The translations under genes and the position numbers were made by a program. This document shows positions 578-62,811 of a DNA stretch of 64,000 bases, one piece after another. The notes beneath the pieces were generated by a model. It was not told the DNA's origin. It made no database searches and saw only the letters and a program-made list of their open reading frames with translations. This DNA is from Halomonas sp. 7T (GTDB taxonomy: Bacteria > Pseudomonadota > Gammaproteobacteria > Pseudomonadales > Halomonadaceae). How positions within the stretch are numbered: position 1 is the first letter of the stretch; each line of letters starts with the position of its first letter. The stretch covers positions 2,294,001 through 2,358,000 of the forward strand of contig NZ_CP087112.1 in assembly GCF_025643255.1 (NCBI RefSeq), written 5' to 3'.

Positions 578-729
578 GCATCCACTAATTTGACTCTACC
601 CATCAGCCCCCTTGATAGCAAAGCCAATTTTGGCCGCTTAACCAAAAGTCGCAGCTTAGCCGATTGACCATTTCCAATCATGCCCCCTTGCATCTCCCCC
701 ACCCGCAGCCTAGACTCCGCTAACTAACT

Positions 730-874
730 GCTTGACGGGGTGCCGGTGATATCCGGCTGAGATGGCGCAGGGCGTATCTGCTTGATACTGCCATAGCGCT
801 GGTCCCGCTGAACCTGATCCGGCTAATGCGCTGCTCCTATGATGAGCGCGCGGGTACCGGCGTAGGGATCAAGC
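730..874 (+). promoter_or_regulatory. TPP riboswitch (THI element) upstream of tenA-thiC
   Basis: The conserved THI-box blocks occur in order: GGGGTGC (737-743), GGCTGAGA (755-762), CTGAACCTGATC (808-819), TAATG, and GGCGTAGGGATC (859-870). GCTTGA at 730-735 pairs with TCAAGC at 869-874 to close P1. The variable P3 arm is long. Unusually, the L5 loop between CCGG at 818-821 and CCGG at 856-859 carries an extra stem (GCGC-T-GCTC with GAGC-GCGC). Thiamine pyrophosphate binding would be expected to lower expression of the downstream thiamine genes. Whether control is by translation or termination cannot be decided from sequence alone. Confidence 0.93.
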
Positions 875-968
875 GATGGCCTTGGCTAGCTGTCACGATT
901 GCACGCCACCTTCCACGCCATCTCCTCGATCTCCGCCCGCCCTCCGGATCACCACTACCGGAGGCATC

Positions 969-48986: not shown

Positions 48987-50636
48987 ATGCCCATATACCT
49001 TTCAGGCCTGAAGCGCCTCTCCTTGCGCACCCGCATCATTGCGCTGGTCACAACGCTGGTATTTACCATCACGATGCTGATTAGCTGGGTGGCCTCCCGT
49101 GAGTCGGCCGCTCAGCTGGAAGCAAATATCGGCGAAACCAGCGCCAATAAAGCCTACCACATGGTAGACAAGCTTAATCGCAGCATGGATGCGCGTATTA
49201 AGGAGGTTAAGCTGTTACTGGGCCTCAAGGACGGACAATCAGGTGGTCAGCTCACGCGTGATCAACTTGAGTACTTACAGCGTAATTACGACGTGGTGTC
49301 CTGGCTTGGCATCACCGACACCCAGGGCACCGTGGTAGCTGCCACTGGCGGTATTTTAGAAGGGCAGTCCATTGCCCAACGCCCCGTCTTTACTGAAGGG
49401 CGGCAGGCACTATGGATTGGTGATGTGCATGATGCGGTGTTGCTGTCGCAACTACTGCCCAACCCCACTGGGGAGCCTATTCAGTTTGTGGATATCGCAG
49501 CCCCGCTGGAAGATGCTAGCGGCGCGTTTAGCGGCGTACTGGCCGTTCATTTAAGCTGGGAATGGGCGGCGCGCGTTAAAGACTCTATGTTTTCGCCAGC
49601 GCTACAAGAACAGCAAACCGACCTTCTATTACTTTCAGAGGATGGCACTGTCCTTTTAGGCCCACCTTCTTTGCGCGGCCAAGCATTGCCTTTTACGCAT
49701 GATAAAAGCGATCCTTCAATGCCTCAGTGGTCCGTTGAAACATGGCCCGATGGGCAACGCTATGTGACGGGGATCGCGCATAGCCAAGGGTTTGGGGATT
49801 TTCCTGGGCTTGGCTGGGTGGCGATTAGCAGGCAGCCGGTTGATGCCGCCTTTGCCCCTGTAGCACGTCTGAACGAACTGATTTTAGGCACAGGACTACT
49901 CGTTGCACTGCTCTTTTCCATTGCTGGCTGGGTATTGGCAGCGCGCCTTATCGCACCGTTAACTCGGCTTGCTCGTGCCGCCGACACCATCCAAACTACC
50001 CAAACGCATGGCGCCTTTACCCTGGAAACCGGCTCCCCCGAATTTGAACGCCTTTCCACGTCTATGCGCGATATGGTCGAGCGGCTATTAGACCAGCGTC
50101 AAACCATCAGCCGCCTAGAAGATTTAGCCAATACTGACCCGCTGACAGGCCTCCCTAACCGCTCTTTTCTTGATCAATATTTGCAGCACACACTGGCAGA
50201 AATGGAGCGTCAGCAACATAGTTTGATAGTACTGATGTTTGATTTGGATGGCTTTAAACGGGTTAACGACACGCTTGGGCACCATGCCGGAGACCTGCTG
50301 CTGATAGAAGTCACCCAACGCTTGAAAGCAACGCTGCGCAGCGGCGATGTTGTGGCACGCTTAGGCGGCGACGAGTTTGTCATGATCATCAAAAGCCCTA
50401 GTGTATCCAGCGCCACACTTGCTAATGACATTAGTCAGCGCTTACTTACCCATATTGCTAAGCCGGTGTACCTACCTGATGGGCAAACCGCACAGGTAGG
50501 ATGCAGCTTGGGAGCCGCCATTTGGCCCCAGCATGGTCACGCCATTAGCCAAGTGTTTCAGCGGGCAGACGCCGCGCTCTATCAAGCCAAACACCAGGGT
50601 AAGCATCGCCTTGTTATTTACGAACAGCCTCACTGA
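48987..50636 (+). CDS. Membrane-bound diguanylate cyclase with Cache-like sensor
   Basis: This inner-membrane enzyme of 549 residues is predicted to make c-di-GMP. A transmembrane helix (about 16-36) leads to a periplasmic Cache-like domain (about 40-285), a second transmembrane helix (about 298-322), a HAMP-like region (about 322-375) and a GGDEF domain. The active-site GGDEF is at residues 460-464. An inhibitory RxxD site (RSGD) lies five residues upstream, so product inhibition is expected. The ribosome site is weak. The last 23 bp overlap the convergent DUF1415 gene. Confidence 0.94.
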   Translation: MPIYLSGLKRLSLRTRIIALVTTLVFTITMLISWVASRESAAQLEANIGETSANKAYHMVDKLNRSMDARIKEVKLLLGLKDGQSGGQLTRDQLEYLQRNYDVVSWLGITDTQGTVVAATGGILEGQSIAQRPVFTEGRQALWIGDVHDAVLLSQLLPNPTGEPIQFVDIAAPLEDASGAFSGVLAVHLSWEWAARVKDSMFSPALQEQQTDLLLLSEDGTVLLGPPSLRGQALPFTHDKSDPSMPQWSVETWPDGQRYVTGIAHSQGFGDFPGLGWVAISRQPVDAAFAPVARLNELILGTGLLVALLFSIAGWVLAARLIAPLTRLARAADTIQTTQTHGAFTLETGSPEFERLSTSMRDMVERLLDQRQTISRLEDLANTDPLTGLPNRSFLDQYLQHTLAEMERQQHSLIVLMFDLDGFKRVNDTLGHHAGDLLLIEVTQRLKATLRSGDVVARLGGDEFVMIIKSPSVSSATLANDISQRLLTHIAKPVYLPDGQTAQVGCSLGAAIWPQHGHAISQVFQRADAALYQAKHQGKHRLVIYEQPH

Positions 50637-51258: not shown

Positions 51259-51927
51259 TTAGGCATGCGCTTGGTAACGTGCCAGCGCCACTTCATAAGA
51301 CTTGTGAATATGGTCGTCCATCAGCGCTCGTGCGGCGGTTGCGTCGCGCTGAAGCGCCAGTTCCACTAATTCATGGTGCTGCTCATCCAATGCTTGGCGA
51401 ATGGTCGGCATTTTTGGCCCTAACCGCCGATAACGATCAAACTGGTCGTGTAACTGCTCAATAAAGCGCAGTAGCCACACCGAGCCACAGGGTGCCACTA
51501 GCGTACGATGAAACTGAGTATGTAGGCGCTCCCACTCCTCCCCTTTATCCAGCGTAATATCCGCACGCTTTAGCCGATGGGCGGCGGCTAATAAATCTGC
51601 CTCCCATAGGGCATCCCCTTGGGCAATGGCGCGCTCAAGCGCCATGCATTCCAGCTCAGTGCGCATCTGAGCAATATCATCCAGCTCATCACGGGAGAGC
51701 TTGGGCACTCTAAAACCACGTTGATTCTCTTGTTCTAGCAAGCCATACGCCGCCAGTTTGTTGAGCGCTTCACGCAGTGGGCTAAGCCCTACTTGGTACT
51801 GATCTTTTAGCGCATTAATCGCCAATTTTTCCCCTGCTTTAAAGCGCCCCCCCACCAAATCTCTGCGCAATAGATCGTAAATGGGGCTAGATGCCTTACC
51901 GGTAGGGAGCTGGATATGCTTGTTCAT
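51259..51927 (-). CDS. GntR-family regulator with FCD domain
   Basis: The 222-residue regulator has an amino-terminal winged helix-turn-helix (about 15-75, INALKDQYQVGLSPLREALNKL) and an all-helical FCD ligand-binding domain (about 85-215, with metal-ligand-type His residues in HTQFHRTLV and HHELVELAL). FadR-type FCD regulators usually sense a carboxylic acid. AAGGA lies 8 nt before the ATG. A perfect 7-3-7 palindrome sits 13 bp upstream of the start, so autoregulation is likely. It diverges from the chromate-type transporter, TTT and GGT genes, which are its probable targets. Confidence 0.92.
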   Translation of the reverse strand: MNKHIQLPTGKASSPIYDLLRRDLVGGRFKAGEKLAINALKDQYQVGLSPLREALNKLAAYGLLEQENQRGFRVPKLSRDELDDIAQMRTELECMALERAIAQGDALWEADLLAAAHRLKRADITLDKGEEWERLHTQFHRTLVAPCGSVWLLRFIEQLHDQFDRYRRLGPKMPTIRQALDEQHHELVELALQRDATAARALMDDHIHKSYEVALARYQAHA

Positions 51928-58147: not shown

Positions 58148-59998
58148 ATGACACCGCCACCATCACCTTCACAACCCCACTCCCCCTTTAGCGGCTTTTT
58201 TAGCGTTTTTCGCTATAGCCGCAGCGCGCTTACCCTGGTTTGGGAAACCTCCCGCTGGATGATGCTGGGATTAGCACTCTGCACCTTAGTGGCGGGTGTG
58301 CTGCCTGCGGTGGCAGCGTGGGTCGGCCAGCTGATTGTGGATGGCGTGGTAGGCGCCATGGAAAGCTATCAGGCGCAAAGCTCACCCAATCTCTGGGAAA
58401 CGCTCACCCCCGTATTAGGTTTAGTGGCTCTTGAAGGGCTGATTATTGCGCTGATTGCCCTGGCCCAGCGTGGGCTATCGGCCCAGCAGTCGCTGCTGCG
58501 GGCGCTGCTAGGCAACAAAGTCAACGTAATGATTTTAGAAAAAGCGGGCACGCTCTCGCTTGGCCAATTTGAAGACTCAGAGCTTTACGACAAACTGACC
58601 CGCGCCCGCCGGGAAGCCTCTACCCGCCCGCTTGCCTTAGTCAATAAAACCTTTGGGCTGCTACAGAACGCCATTTCGCTGGCAAGCTTTGGTTTCTTAT
58701 TGGTGCAGTTTTCCCCCTGGGCGCTGCTTATTTTAGTTGTGGGCGCACTGCCGGTGTTTCTTTCAGAAGCGAAATTTTCCGGCGATGCGTTTCGGCTATT
58801 TCGCTGGCGTTCGCCCCAAGCCCGCATGCAGATGTATTTAGAAACCGTACTGGCTCGGGAAGACAGTATCAAAGAGGTAAAGCTCTTCGGCTTAGAGCCC
58901 TTGTTTTTGCAACGTTACCGAGACATCTTCAACCGGCTGTTTGTTGAAGAGCGCCTCTTAACGCTGCGTCGAGAAAGCTGGGGGTTTATCCTTGGCCTAC
59001 TTGGCACGCTCACCTTTTATGCTGCGTACGGCTGGGTGGTGGTGGAAACCATTGTGGGGGCGCTCACCCTTGGCCAAATGACCATGTACCTGATGGTGTT
59101 TAAACAGGGGCAAGGCGCCTTATCAGCCAGCCTGACCGCCATCAGCGGCATGTATGAAGATAACCTGTACCTATCCAATCTTTATGAATACCTTGAGCAA
59201 CCCACCGACGTTGAAGAAGGTCATCTCACCCAGGGCGTTGCCCCGGGTGACGGGCTGCGCTTTGAGCACGTCAGCTTCTCGTATCCTGGTGGTGGTGAAG
59301 TGCTACACGATATTTCGCTTCATTTGGTGCCGGGAGGCAGTCTCGCGCTAGTGGGAGAAAACGGCTCGGGTAAAACCACGTTGATAAAGCTCTTAACGCG
59401 GCTTTACCACCCGACTAAGGGGCGAATTCTGTTAGATGGTAGCGACTTAAAATCCTGGGATACTCAGGCATTGCGTGAACGGGTCGGGGTCATTTTCCAG
59501 GATTTTGTGCGCTACCAATTAACGGTTGGTGAAAACCTCGGCGTGGGCGATACCCAAGCGTTTGACGACGAACAGCGCTGGCAACAGGCGGCGCACAATG
59601 GCATGGCGGATGAATTTATCACACGCATGCCCAGTGGCTACCAAACCCAGCTGGGCCGTTGGTTTAAAAATGGTCAGGAGCTCTCAGGCGGACAGTGGCA
59701 AAAAGTAGCGCTTTCACGCGCTTATATGCGCAAAAATGCCGATATTTTAGTGCTGGATGAGCCCACTGCCGCCATGGATGCCGCCGCAGAAGCGGAAGTA
59801 TTCGCCCGTTTTCGGGAACACAGTAGCGACAAAATGACGATTCTGATTTCCCACCGCTTTTCCACCGTGCGTAGTGCCGAGCAGATCGTGGTGATTGACC
59901 AAGGACGCATTATTGAGCAAGGCACCCATGAAACACTGCTAGAAGAGAACGGGCGCTACGCGTCGTTATTTCACTTACAGGCCGAAGGATATAGGTAA
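58148..59998 (+). CDS. ABC exporter half-transporter (fused permease and ATPase)
   Basis: This inner-membrane ABC protein of 616 residues has about six transmembrane helices in the first 330 residues. The ATPase domain follows: Walker A GENGSGKT at about 403-410, LSGGQWQKVALSRA signature, Walker B ILVLDEPTAAMD, and switch His in ISHRFSTVRS. It is expected to work as a dimer. The substrate is unknown. The ribosome site is weak, and an earlier start is not supported. It is separate from the GGT operon. Confidence 0.93.
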   Translation: MTPPPSPSQPHSPFSGFFSVFRYSRSALTLVWETSRWMMLGLALCTLVAGVLPAVAAWVGQLIVDGVVGAMESYQAQSSPNLWETLTPVLGLVALEGLIIALIALAQRGLSAQQSLLRALLGNKVNVMILEKAGTLSLGQFEDSELYDKLTRARREASTRPLALVNKTFGLLQNAISLASFGFLLVQFSPWALLILVVGALPVFLSEAKFSGDAFRLFRWRSPQARMQMYLETVLAREDSIKEVKLFGLEPLFLQRYRDIFNRLFVEERLLTLRRESWGFILGLLGTLTFYAAYGWVVVETIVGALTLGQMTMYLMVFKQGQGALSASLTAISGMYEDNLYLSNLYEYLEQPTDVEEGHLTQGVAPGDGLRFEHVSFSYPGGGEVLHDISLHLVPGGSLALVGENGSGKTTLIKLLTRLYHPTKGRILLDGSDLKSWDTQALRERVGVIFQDFVRYQLTVGENLGVGDTQAFDDEQRWQQAAHNGMADEFITRMPSGYQTQLGRWFKNGQELSGGQWQKVALSRAYMRKNADILVLDEPTAAMDAAAEAEVFARFREHSSDKMTILISHRFSTVRSAEQIVVIDQGRIIEQGTHETLLEENGRYASLFHLQAEGYR

Positions 59999-60149
59999 AA
60001 AGTGATAGTGATATAACACAACATCTAGCTTGCAATAAAAGAAGTGTACAGAGCGGTTAGCTTTTTGCTTTGCCAGCAATGCTTCAAGACCAAAAGTTTT
60101 ATTTTTGGCCTAAAATCGTTGATATTTTTCTTTAGCTTTTCTACGGTTA

Positions 60150-60348
60150 ATAAGTATCTCGAAGGTAAAGCAGGGATGTTTTCGGAGGCACGGAGCCTCA
60201 TGGGGCAGGACGCTCATAGGAACAAGGAAGGCTATTCATGTTTGCAGGATGCACACTATAGCCACGGAGTTTTGAAAGTAGACGTACCGCTGCCCAAGTA
60301 AGAGAATGCAGCAGCGCCCTCACAGTCATGCTGTGGGGGCGTTTTTTT
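60150..60348 (+). ncRNA. Candidate CsrA/RsmA-sequestering small RNA (CsrB/RsmZ-like)
   Basis: Eight GGA motifs fall within 95 nt: 60174, 60184, 60192, 60208, 60219, 60226, 60247 and 60266 (first base of each). Several can sit in hairpin loops, for example GAGGC-ACGGA-GCCTC (60186-60200) and TGC-AGGAT-GCA. The region ends in a strong intrinsic terminator (60315-60348). No gene with a good ribosome site fits. This is the layout of RNAs that bind many CsrA/RsmA dimers and relieve translational repression. The 5' end is a guess: TTGATA at 60119 with TACGGT 17 nt later is one promoter candidate. I could not find a clear GacA box. Confidence 0.7.
60315..60348 (+). terminator. Intrinsic terminator of the GGA-rich RNA
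   Basis: CGCCCTCACAG (60315-60325) pairs with CTGTGGGGGCG (60331-60341), an 11-bp stem with one G-U pair and a 5-nt loop. TTTTTTT follows. Confidence 0.9.
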
Positions 60349-60380
60349 ATGTATAGGGTAAAAAATTTGACTGGGCGTTT

Positions 60381-60416
60381 ATGCCTCCTGATTAACAAGA
60401 GGCATAATAATTTTTT
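60381..60416 (+). terminator. Second hairpin with T-rich tail
   Basis: ATGCCTC (60381-60387) pairs with GAGGCAT (60399-60405), followed by AATAATTTTTT. It may be a back-up rightward terminator, or mark the 3' end of the convergent HDOD-GGDEF gene. The orientation of use is unclear. Confidence 0.4.
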
Positions 60417-60430
60417 ATAAAGCTCCGGGG

Positions 60431-61963
60431 CTAATGACCATATACAGCGATACCGCTACGTCCATTGCGCTTGATGAAATACATGCTCTGATCAGCAGCT
60501 TCCACTAGTTCGTTAGCACTGGCAAACCCGCCATCTTCAAGGCTTGCAATACCAATTGAGGCAGTCACGTAAATAGGCTGATCTTGGTACCAAGCCATTG
60601 GTTGCTCTTGTAGCCGGTTAGCAACGCGCTGGGCAAATTTTTTGGCGCTGCTTGCATTTTCTCCCGGTAAAACAGCCATAAATTCTTCTCCACCATAACG
60701 ACCGGCCAGGTCGCCATCGCGTATGATGACATTGAGTAATTTGGCAAAGCTTACCAGTACGCTATCACCAATAGCATGACCAAATTGGTCATTAATCAAT
60801 TTAAAGCGATCAATATCAAAGAAAACAATGGAAAGCGTGCTGCCACCTTCACGGCATTTCCAAAATCGCTTATCTAGTTGCTCCTCTAACCACCCCCGGT
60901 TTGCTATCCCTGTCAATGCATCGGTACGACTTCGTGCCTCAATTACGTTTTGACGTTCAAGCAGTTGCGCTAACTCTTTTTGCTGTTGGTCTAAACGAGC
61001 GCTCAAGGCTAAGGTTTGCTCAAATAACAGCTGCTGAGCTTCTGCCAGCAATGCTTCGTTATAGTGTTGTGTCGGTGCTGTGATATCCAGGATATTAGCG
61101 AGGCTGGGAAGCTGAGTTTCAATAGTGTTAAGAATTTCGCCTAGCTCGACATGTTCTACTAACGGGTGGCTTTCCAATTTACGCATAAGGTTCACCAGTG
61201 CCTGGGCAGGCGATGGCGAAAGCCAAGCATCAGCAATATGTCCAGAAAGCCGGATGCACAGTTGGTCTGCTGATGTCACCGAAAAATCCAAATGACTAGT
61301 TTGAATTGCTTCTGCTATGGGAGTGGGGACTCCCCACTTTGCGGCAAGCCAAGCACCTACAATGGCATGATCACAGCCAAATAACACGTGCTCATTGTGA
61401 TTCAGCTCTGGGTGAAAAACGGCGGGTGTTTCATAAACACTCGCGACTTCTTCAGGGTAGAGAGCCTCTAAGGCTAGAACTCCAATATCCTGTAATAAAG
61501 CCGCTGTAAAAACAAAATCTTTCTTAGACGGACACAAAAGATTGGCCAGATAGCGCGAGGCAATGGCAGCGATGAGTGAGCGGCTCCAAACCCTTTGCAG
61601 ATAGGCATTGGCCCCTTTCTGGCGAAATAAGCTAAAGCTAAGCGTTGCTGCCAAAGTAGTATCTAACCCAATACGCGCAACAGCCTCCTGGCAGCTACTT
61701 ATTGACGGTGCACTGTTACGGGTATAGTGAGCACTGTTAGCTAACGCCAGTAAACGCGCAGTAAGTACTGGGTCATGCTCGATAGCATCAGCGTAAGCCT
61801 TGACATTCGCATTTGAGGATCTCGCAATGGCGAGCACTTTCATGGCAACTGAAGGCAGTGTGGGCAGTGTTGCACAACCTTCGAGGCTATGACGAATGAA
61901 GGCGGGCAGTGGAGAGCTAAGCGATAGTTGAGCACTATAGTCGGTTGGTTGAATAGCCATCAT
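60431..61963 (-). CDS. HDOD-domain diguanylate cyclase
   Basis: The 510-residue soluble protein has an amino-terminal HDOD domain (about 20-215, with ATLPTLPSVAMKVLAIA and FGCDHAIVGAWLAAKWG) and a coiled-coil linker (about 290-340). A carboxyl GGDEF domain has the active motif RYGGEEFMAVLPG. RDGD five residues upstream is the inhibitory RxxD site. It should make c-di-GMP in response to an unknown cytoplasmic signal. AGGGA precedes the ATG. It lies beside the GGA-rich RNA on one side and an OmpR-type regulator on the other. Confidence 0.93.
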   Translation of the reverse strand: MMAIQPTDYSAQLSLSSPLPAFIRHSLEGCATLPTLPSVAMKVLAIARSSNANVKAYADAIEHDPVLTARLLALANSAHYTRNSAPSISSCQEAVARIGLDTTLAATLSFSLFRQKGANAYLQRVWSRSLIAAIASRYLANLLCPSKKDFVFTAALLQDIGVLALEALYPEEVASVYETPAVFHPELNHNEHVLFGCDHAIVGAWLAAKWGVPTPIAEAIQTSHLDFSVTSADQLCIRLSGHIADAWLSPSPAQALVNLMRKLESHPLVEHVELGEILNTIETQLPSLANILDITAPTQHYNEALLAEAQQLLFEQTLALSARLDQQQKELAQLLERQNVIEARSRTDALTGIANRGWLEEQLDKRFWKCREGGSTLSIVFFDIDRFKLINDQFGHAIGDSVLVSFAKLLNVIIRDGDLAGRYGGEEFMAVLPGENASSAKKFAQRVANRLQEQPMAWYQDQPIYVTASIGIASLEDGGFASANELVEAADQSMYFIKRNGRSGIAVYGH

Positions 61964-62081
61964 AGCAAGTCCCTGTGTTTATCCGGCTAGTGATAGGGGA
62001 TCATTTTTTATAATCAAACAAGCGTTTTTTAGCATAGGACAGAAGTAAAAGGGTGGGAAGCAATGGAGGCGTCTTTTTTGA

Positions 62082-62789
62082 TTGATTAAAAAAGAGGACG
62101 TACTTCATGAGCCGCTCTTACGGACAGTTCATTCTGTGATTATGAACGAGTATGACCGCAGCGGCGTTGCAAGCGAGCTGAGACGCGCCACGCAAGAGCA
62201 GCGCTTCGATTTTCTCATTATTGACTGGCGATTACCGGATGGCTGCGGCATGGATGTCGTTGCCCATCTACGTCAAAACGATGGCTGGCGTGGCCCGATC
62301 CTCTTCATCACTGCAAGCCAAAATGAAGAGGACGTTGTAACAGCGCTGGAGCAAGGCGCCGACGACTTTTTGGCCAAGCCGTTACGTCCAAGAGAATTAA
62401 TTGCCCGGGTTAGCGCACTTGGCCGTCGCGTAGGTTACGAGACATCAGCTCATGCCATCGCTTGCCCAGATATATTTGCTATTAATCAGGAAGAGCACAG
62501 CATCAGTATCGCGGGAAACTATGTGGCGCTGACCGAACGCGAATATAGATTAGCCATCCTGTTTTTCTCTAAAGTGGGCGAGCTACTGACACGCGCCTAT
62601 CTTTTGGAGCTAGTGTGGGGAATCAAAGGCAGTGTTTCTACTCGTACGGTGGATACCCACGTCAGTCGGCTGCGCCGTAAGCTGGAGTTGGATGGGCGTC
62701 ATGGCCTACGCCTACGCAGCGTATATCAATCGGGCTATCGCATGGAGGTGTGTAGCATCTCCTCCGTAGAGCAAGCAGCCAATCACTAA
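62082..62789 (+). CDS. OmpR-type response regulator with atypical amino terminus
   Basis: The 235-residue regulator has a receiver domain (about 1-115) and an OmpR winged-helix DNA-binding domain (about 135-225). The phosphoacceptor Asp48 (FLIIDWRLPDG), the Thr in LFITAS and the Lys in FLAKPLRP are present. The start is odd. In this frame it begins at TTG, directly after an in-frame TGA. The first strand reads MIKKED instead of a hydrophobic strand, although Glu5-Asp6 can still form the acidic pocket. An ATG at 62063 in another frame gives MEASFLID and a stop. No histidine kinase gene is adjacent, so it is an orphan regulator here. Confidence 0.75.
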   Translation: MIKKEDVLHEPLLRTVHSVIMNEYDRSGVASELRRATQEQRFDFLIIDWRLPDGCGMDVVAHLRQNDGWRGPILFITASQNEEDVVTALEQGADDFLAKPLRPRELIARVSALGRRVGYETSAHAIACPDIFAINQEEHSISIAGNYVALTEREYRLAILFFSKVGELLTRAYLLELVWGIKGSVSTRTVDTHVSRLRRKLELDGRHGLRLRSVYQSGYRMEVCSISSVEQAANH

Positions 62790-62790
62790 A

Positions 62791-62811
62791 AAGCCGACAC
62801 ACTCGGTCGGC
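62791..62811. terminator. Shared terminator between the response regulator and arfA
   Basis: AGCCGAC pairs with GTCGGCT around a 7-nt loop, two bases after the response-regulator stop. On the minus strand TTTTT follows, so it suits the arfA transcript best. Confidence 0.65.

Follow-up and report, generated by a model that had tools for sequence, protein, structure and literature searches.

The region at 60153–60348 of the window, by which we mean the whole 64,000-nucleotide (64-kb) stretch of Halomonas sp. 7T DNA that was analyzed, probably specifies a CsrA-sequestering RNA, about 195 nt long, with its 3′ end near 60348. The transcription, processing, CsrA binding and effect of this candidate RNA are deduced from sequence. 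The host has a CsrA: one CsrA-family match is found in the genome (G000:C1:319189-319344), and the protein is very similar to the Halomonas hydrothermalis CsrA printed in the accessible part of PMC12889724.

The GGA motifs on the forward strand start at 60174, 60184, 60192, 60208, 60219, 60226, 60247 and 60266, that is, eight in 95 nt, as the initial annotation had counted, and this is the highest GGA density per 95 nt in the window with both strands counted. CAGGA(U/C/A)G and CANGGA are consensus forms applied to such motifs; two of the candidate's GGAs stand in the former context and four in the latter. A separate cluster at 51616 on the reverse strand is the runner-up in the window, with seven GGAs per 95 nt. 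Among 240 strands of 64 kb simulated with Markov models of order 2 and 5, counting both strands, one reached at least eight GGAs per 95 nt. Nothing as dense occurred in the 974,556 strand-bases of further loci fetched from the same genome and the genus, a background that excludes the loci of the candidate, the eno–fdxA RNA described below and two pattern hits, and in which some loci overlap. When the 160-nt core was shuffled with its dinucleotides kept, which preserves its richness in GG and GA, eight or more GGAs appeared in 21 of 2000 shuffles, so local composition accounts for part of the count.

The predicted fold of 60153–60280 contains three clear hairpins with a GGA in the loop and a weaker one around 60174, and the remaining GGAs lie in linkers (Table 1). 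The perfect ACGGA hairpin loop of the initial annotation is among them, while the hairpin at 60203–60215 partly gives way to longer-range pairing once the 3′ part joins the fold. Exposure was compared with a null that kept the GGAs in place and shuffled the remaining sequence (n = 600). Over 60153–60280, the mean unpaired probability of the GGAs is 0.77 versus 0.50 ± 0.08 in the null (0/600 as high), four of the eight GGAs lie in hairpin loops versus a null mean of 0.84 (p = 0.005), and six of the eight are unpaired in the MFE structure versus 1.83 (0/600). Over 60153–60312 the signal is weaker (p = 0.020 for unpaired probability, 0.032 for hairpin loops and 0.008 for MFE), and these are the safer figures because the endpoint 60280 was picked after a fold had been seen. 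With the terminator in the fold, five GGAs keep an unpaired probability of at least 0.79 and three go down to 0.20–0.31; the mean exposure is then not significant against a dinucleotide null (0.087). Folding stability is ordinary for the core at 60153–60280 (z = −0.02) and reaches z = −2.33 for 60150–60350, which includes the terminator. Hairpin energies around single GGAs are weakly enriched, four of eight being below −1 kcal/mol versus 21.6% of 1153 background GGAs. As a yardstick, the eno–fdxA RNA gives a GGA exposure of 0.82 versus 0.63 in the same test (p = 0.003) and no excess of GGAs in hairpin loops (p = 0.296). Like CsrA sponges as a class, the candidate is thus predicted to expose multiple GGAs in loops and linkers, and in these models the exposure appears to exceed chance for the given number of GGAs, less so over the longer stretches.

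Table 1. Features of the candidate region, its surroundings and the eno–fdxA RNA (positions are those of the window unless a contig is named).
Feature	Position	Strand	Basis
GGA cluster, eight motifs, proposed CsrA-binding region	60174–60268	+	motif count
Weak hairpin around CAGGGAUG	60167–60182	+	folding
Hairpin GAGGC-ACGGA-GCCUC, GGA in pentaloop	60185–60199	+	folding
Hairpin with AGGAC in loop (CAGGACG motif)	60203–60215	+	folding
Longer hairpin, GGA in apical loop (GCAGGAUGC)	60230–60263	+	folding
Intrinsic terminator, 14 pairs, then T tract to about 60348	60313–60343	+	terminator scan
Weak promoter-like pair TTGATA-17-TACGGT, 8/12, start near 60153, low confidence	60119–60147	+	lax look
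ABC transporter gene (permease-ATPase)	58148–59998	+	ORF and Pfam
HDOD-GGDEF protein gene, convergent with candidate	60431–61963	−	Pfam
Segment of about 2.8 kb with the candidate RNA, the HDOD-GGDEF gene and a response-regulator frame truncated at its N-terminus	60000–62790		comparison with two genomes
RsmZ-type candidate RNA between eno and fdxA	G000:C1:309228-309391, beyond the window; loci L066, L086, L152	+	exact GacA box upstream

The main rival to a sponge is a chance or relic cluster of GGAs in an orphan intergenic stretch, where the terminator just ends the ABC-transporter transcript and CsrA has no role; we regard this as unlikely. It is opposed by the want of any comparable cluster in the background of other loci and by the exposure above the GGA-fixed null. 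It is favored by the core shuffles that reach eight GGAs, by a promoter scan that comes back empty and by the lack of a homologue among the genomes searched. In a set with one genome per species, the candidate was found at E 0.001 or better in its own genome only among 82 genus genomes; among 275 family genomes it was found in its own and in one other (G119), whose 32-base match is the terminator alone. Conserved synteny beside the HDOD-GGDEF gene was considered and rejected, as the 800 nt downstream in 30 loci (own included) hold elsewhere at most six GGAs per 120 nt. A conserved position after the ABC transporter was likewise rejected, with at most five GGAs per 95 nt elsewhere in the 28 of 30 loci that were parsed (own included, L121 and L129 out), these 30 representing the best transporter matches among those obtained in 78 genomes. 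The hairpin 18-mer has two matches in genome_contigs, in a Spirochaetes MAG and an Opitutaceae MAG, and none in viral_contigs. Both lie in GC-rich DNA (71% and 64%) where long open frames span the site. GGAs are plentiful along the whole Spirochaetes locus (seven per 95 nt at a distance of up to 200 nt from the match, ten elsewhere in the locus), the Opitutaceae locus has four GGAs per 95 nt, and the two matches are probably due to chance.

The candidate lies on a segment of about 2.8 kb that is missing at this site in the two genomes whose transporter is most similar (97% and 96%); its ends were set by eye from the comparison with these two. In both, the transporter gene is followed by a small frame, read by eye, that is presumably arfA-like; the window has the stretch from 60000 to about 62790 between transporter and small frame. 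Relatives of the HDOD-GGDEF protein (85, 85, 81 and 65% identity) have other surroundings, without a comparable GGA cluster downstream. Since the segment is missing at this site from both sisters and these relatives are placed elsewhere, it is either an insertion in the lineage of strain 7T or a loss in the two sisters. Plasmids searched with 60000–62795 and phages searched with 60000–60430 gave no match. An OmpR-type response regulator is encoded at 62082–62789 (+), with a receiver that matches Pfam only from profile position 32; its N-terminus looks broken because the frame from ATG 62063 stops after eight codons. For this reason the segment may be decaying, and the sharing of a segment with such a frame is a further point for a relic.

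The strong intrinsic terminator that the initial annotation had seen at the end of the region is recovered by the scan, so that the candidate, like known CsrA sponges, would be a short RNA closed by a terminator. Its neighbor is also as described, for Pfam finds both the HDOD and the GGDEF domain in the adjoining gene. The scan lists no terminator from the end of the ABC-transporter frame up to 60313, and the transporter gene may therefore have the candidate as its 3′ UTR. No sigma-70 promoter passed the scan at the candidate, and the pair in Table 1 is one of several equally weak pairs under lax promoter criteria. CsrA might also act in cis, binding the 3′ UTR of the transporter mRNA and altering its stability or termination with no free sponge, as the shared strand and the stretch free of listed terminators between transporter gene and cluster would allow. 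We consider this improbable: the two closest genomes have a different sequence after the transporter stop codon, and the eight sites exceed what is common in cis control, which usually uses fewer than eight CsrA sites. A small protein gene, either the 85-aa GTG frame at 60044–60301 that overlaps the candidate region or an internal frame from ATG 60176, would explain open frames that end just before the terminator, yet it is very improbable given that the 85-aa frame has no Pfam match and no homologue in the 274 other family genomes searched; the overlapping frame is a qualification to the initial view that no good coding gene occupies the gap.

Neither its sequence, nor its activator site, nor its synteny makes the candidate a CsrB or RsmZ family member. 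The Rfam comparison that had been proposed as a check gave no Csr/Rsm match: no CsrB, RsmY or RsmZ family reaches the gathering score in the 64-kb window, and the nine weak matches in 59900–60600 (up to E 10) are all unrelated. A TPP riboswitch at 726–885 (+) is the one Rfam match in the window that scores above gathering. Homology of the candidate to an Rfam sponge finds no support in these matches, and none of the four sub-cut-off RF00166 matches in the genome lies at the candidate or at the eno–fdxA RNA. Gac-controlled Rsm RNAs have the GacA box TGTAAG-N6-CTTACA upstream, and no such box with up to three mismatches occurs within 9 kb of the candidate; the window has 13 versus a shuffle mean of 18.5, the nearest at 50433–50450. 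In place of the fdxA neighbor of RsmZ synteny, the candidate is flanked by the ABC transporter and the HDOD-GGDEF gene. What it shares with RsmZ (Rfam RF00166 PrrB_RsmZ) and CsrB is many GGAs in loops and linkers and a closing terminator, and it differs from them in having no Rfam Csr/Rsm match, nearby GacA box or fdxA neighbor. The initial reading of a CsrB/RsmY/RsmZ design is thus upheld for GGA density and predicted exposure, and less so for an ordinary stand-alone RNA, as the searches gave no Rfam Csr/Rsm match, no GacA box within 9 kb, no sigma-70 promoter and no relative that carries it.

The orthodox setting is found elsewhere in the genome, between genes that, from their translations, we take to be eno and a convergent ferredoxin gene (fdxA) followed by what we take to be mutS. 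The RNA encoded there has ten GGAs and a terminator, and the one exact GacA box of the genome among the matches listed (C1:309041) starts 187 bases upstream of it; with up to three mismatches, the genome has 819 boxes versus 642 for the reversed control. With box plus RNA as query, BLAST at E 0.01 gave matches in 79 of the 82 genus genomes, but for G003, at least, the match is confined to the box. The exact box is present in 26 of the 28 parsed loci (30 fetched). A covariance model (R1) of 25 sequences, in which 8 of 42 pairs have two-sided changes, has matches in 201 of the 275 family genomes, in 12 of the 24 genera and in 78 of the 82 genus members (counted by rows), and may miss weak matches because of strict filters. 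Rfam up to E 10 finds unrelated weak families here and no Csr/Rsm family. In Pseudomonas, rsmZ adjoins fdxA, according to the accessible part of PMC9788540. The eno–fdxA RNA is likely the RsmZ of Halomonadaceae, and it suits the RsmZ setting better than the candidate at 60153–60348 does. The idea that the candidate is its paralogue finds no support: a search of the window with R1 at a limit of E 10 yields nothing, and genome-wide, at the same limit, R1 finds the eno–fdxA RNA and one weak match at 736773. In other species, exact GacA-type palindromes in L192 and L194 (genomes G017 and G008) each have seven GGAs per 120 nt just downstream, and possibly mark sponge RNAs or else belong to a dispersed palindrome; the palindromes of L190, L191, L193 and L195 have at most five GGAs downstream.

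By place, the absence of a GacA box and a good promoter, and narrow distribution, the candidate appears to fit RsmW, RsmU and CsrR1 better than CsrB and RsmZ. RsmW of Pseudomonas aeruginosa has, in the accessible text of PMC4950607, seven GGAs, three of them in outer loops (the candidate has eight), no terminator between the RNA and the upstream gene, and no close GacA site, a weak one lying about 830 bp upstream; its −35-like site with no apparent −10 can be likened to the poor promoter of the candidate. It is thought to be specific to P. aeruginosa (PMC7366521, in the part available), which resembles the narrow distribution seen here. The likeness is one of features. The upstream gene of the candidate is an ABC transporter, and expression and RsmA binding were shown for RsmW, whereas the candidate is a sequence prediction (PMC4950607). 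The available portion of PMC7694677 describes RsmU of Xanthomonas campestris as a GGA-bearing RNA in a 3′ UTR, outside the known sponge families, like the candidate; it differs in having three to four GGAs instead of eight and in its demonstrated binding of RsmA. In Alcanivorax dieselolei, as far as the accessible text of PMC9788540 goes, the UTR-derived sponge candidate CsrR1, of narrow distribution, occurs with a conserved ferredoxin-linked CsrR2, the same two-part pattern as is proposed here, but CsrR1 derives from a 5′ UTR (hfq) and both RNAs were detected by RNA sequencing.

Taken together, the candidate may be a 3′-UTR-derived sponge like RsmW rather than a stand-alone gene of the CsrB/RsmZ kind, as suggested by the scans that list neither a terminator after the ABC-transporter gene nor a good promoter. 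Its RNA could be the 3′ end of the transporter mRNA, processed out in the way reported for RsmW (PMC4950607, accessible part), or it could start from its own weak promoter near 60119–60147. Three or four small hairpins would present a GGA in their loops and most other GGAs would lie in linkers; with so many loop and linker GGAs, one molecule could keep several CsrA dimers off mRNAs. Since no GacA box was found near it, the candidate would supply CsrA with a Gac-independent input. As a tentative and rather doubtful extension, it would be a CsrA sponge confined to one species and independent of Gac, which is released from an exporter mRNA's 3′ UTR and either came in with the 2.8-kb HDOD-GGDEF segment or originated inside it.

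No CsrA-antagonizing RNA is described for Halomonadaceae (including Halomonas, Halomonas elongata and Chromohalobacter) among the papers listed from the open-licence literature surveyed, and for Halomonas anticariensis Table 1 of a 2020 review enters the mimic RNA as unknown (PMC7366521, in the part available). With the eno–fdxA RNA, the family has a strong orthodox-sponge candidate, which opens the Gac-CsrA cascade of these halophiles to direct testing. The candidate at 60153–60348, if real, would extend the few known UTR-derived CsrA sponges of narrow distribution (RsmW, RsmU and CsrR1) by a Halomonas-type case, and would suggest a repeated emergence of such sponges next to one that is conserved and Gac-driven. 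If the exporter-linked origin is also true, exporter transcription, and perhaps c-di-GMP signaling, would be tied to CsrA activity in one lineage.
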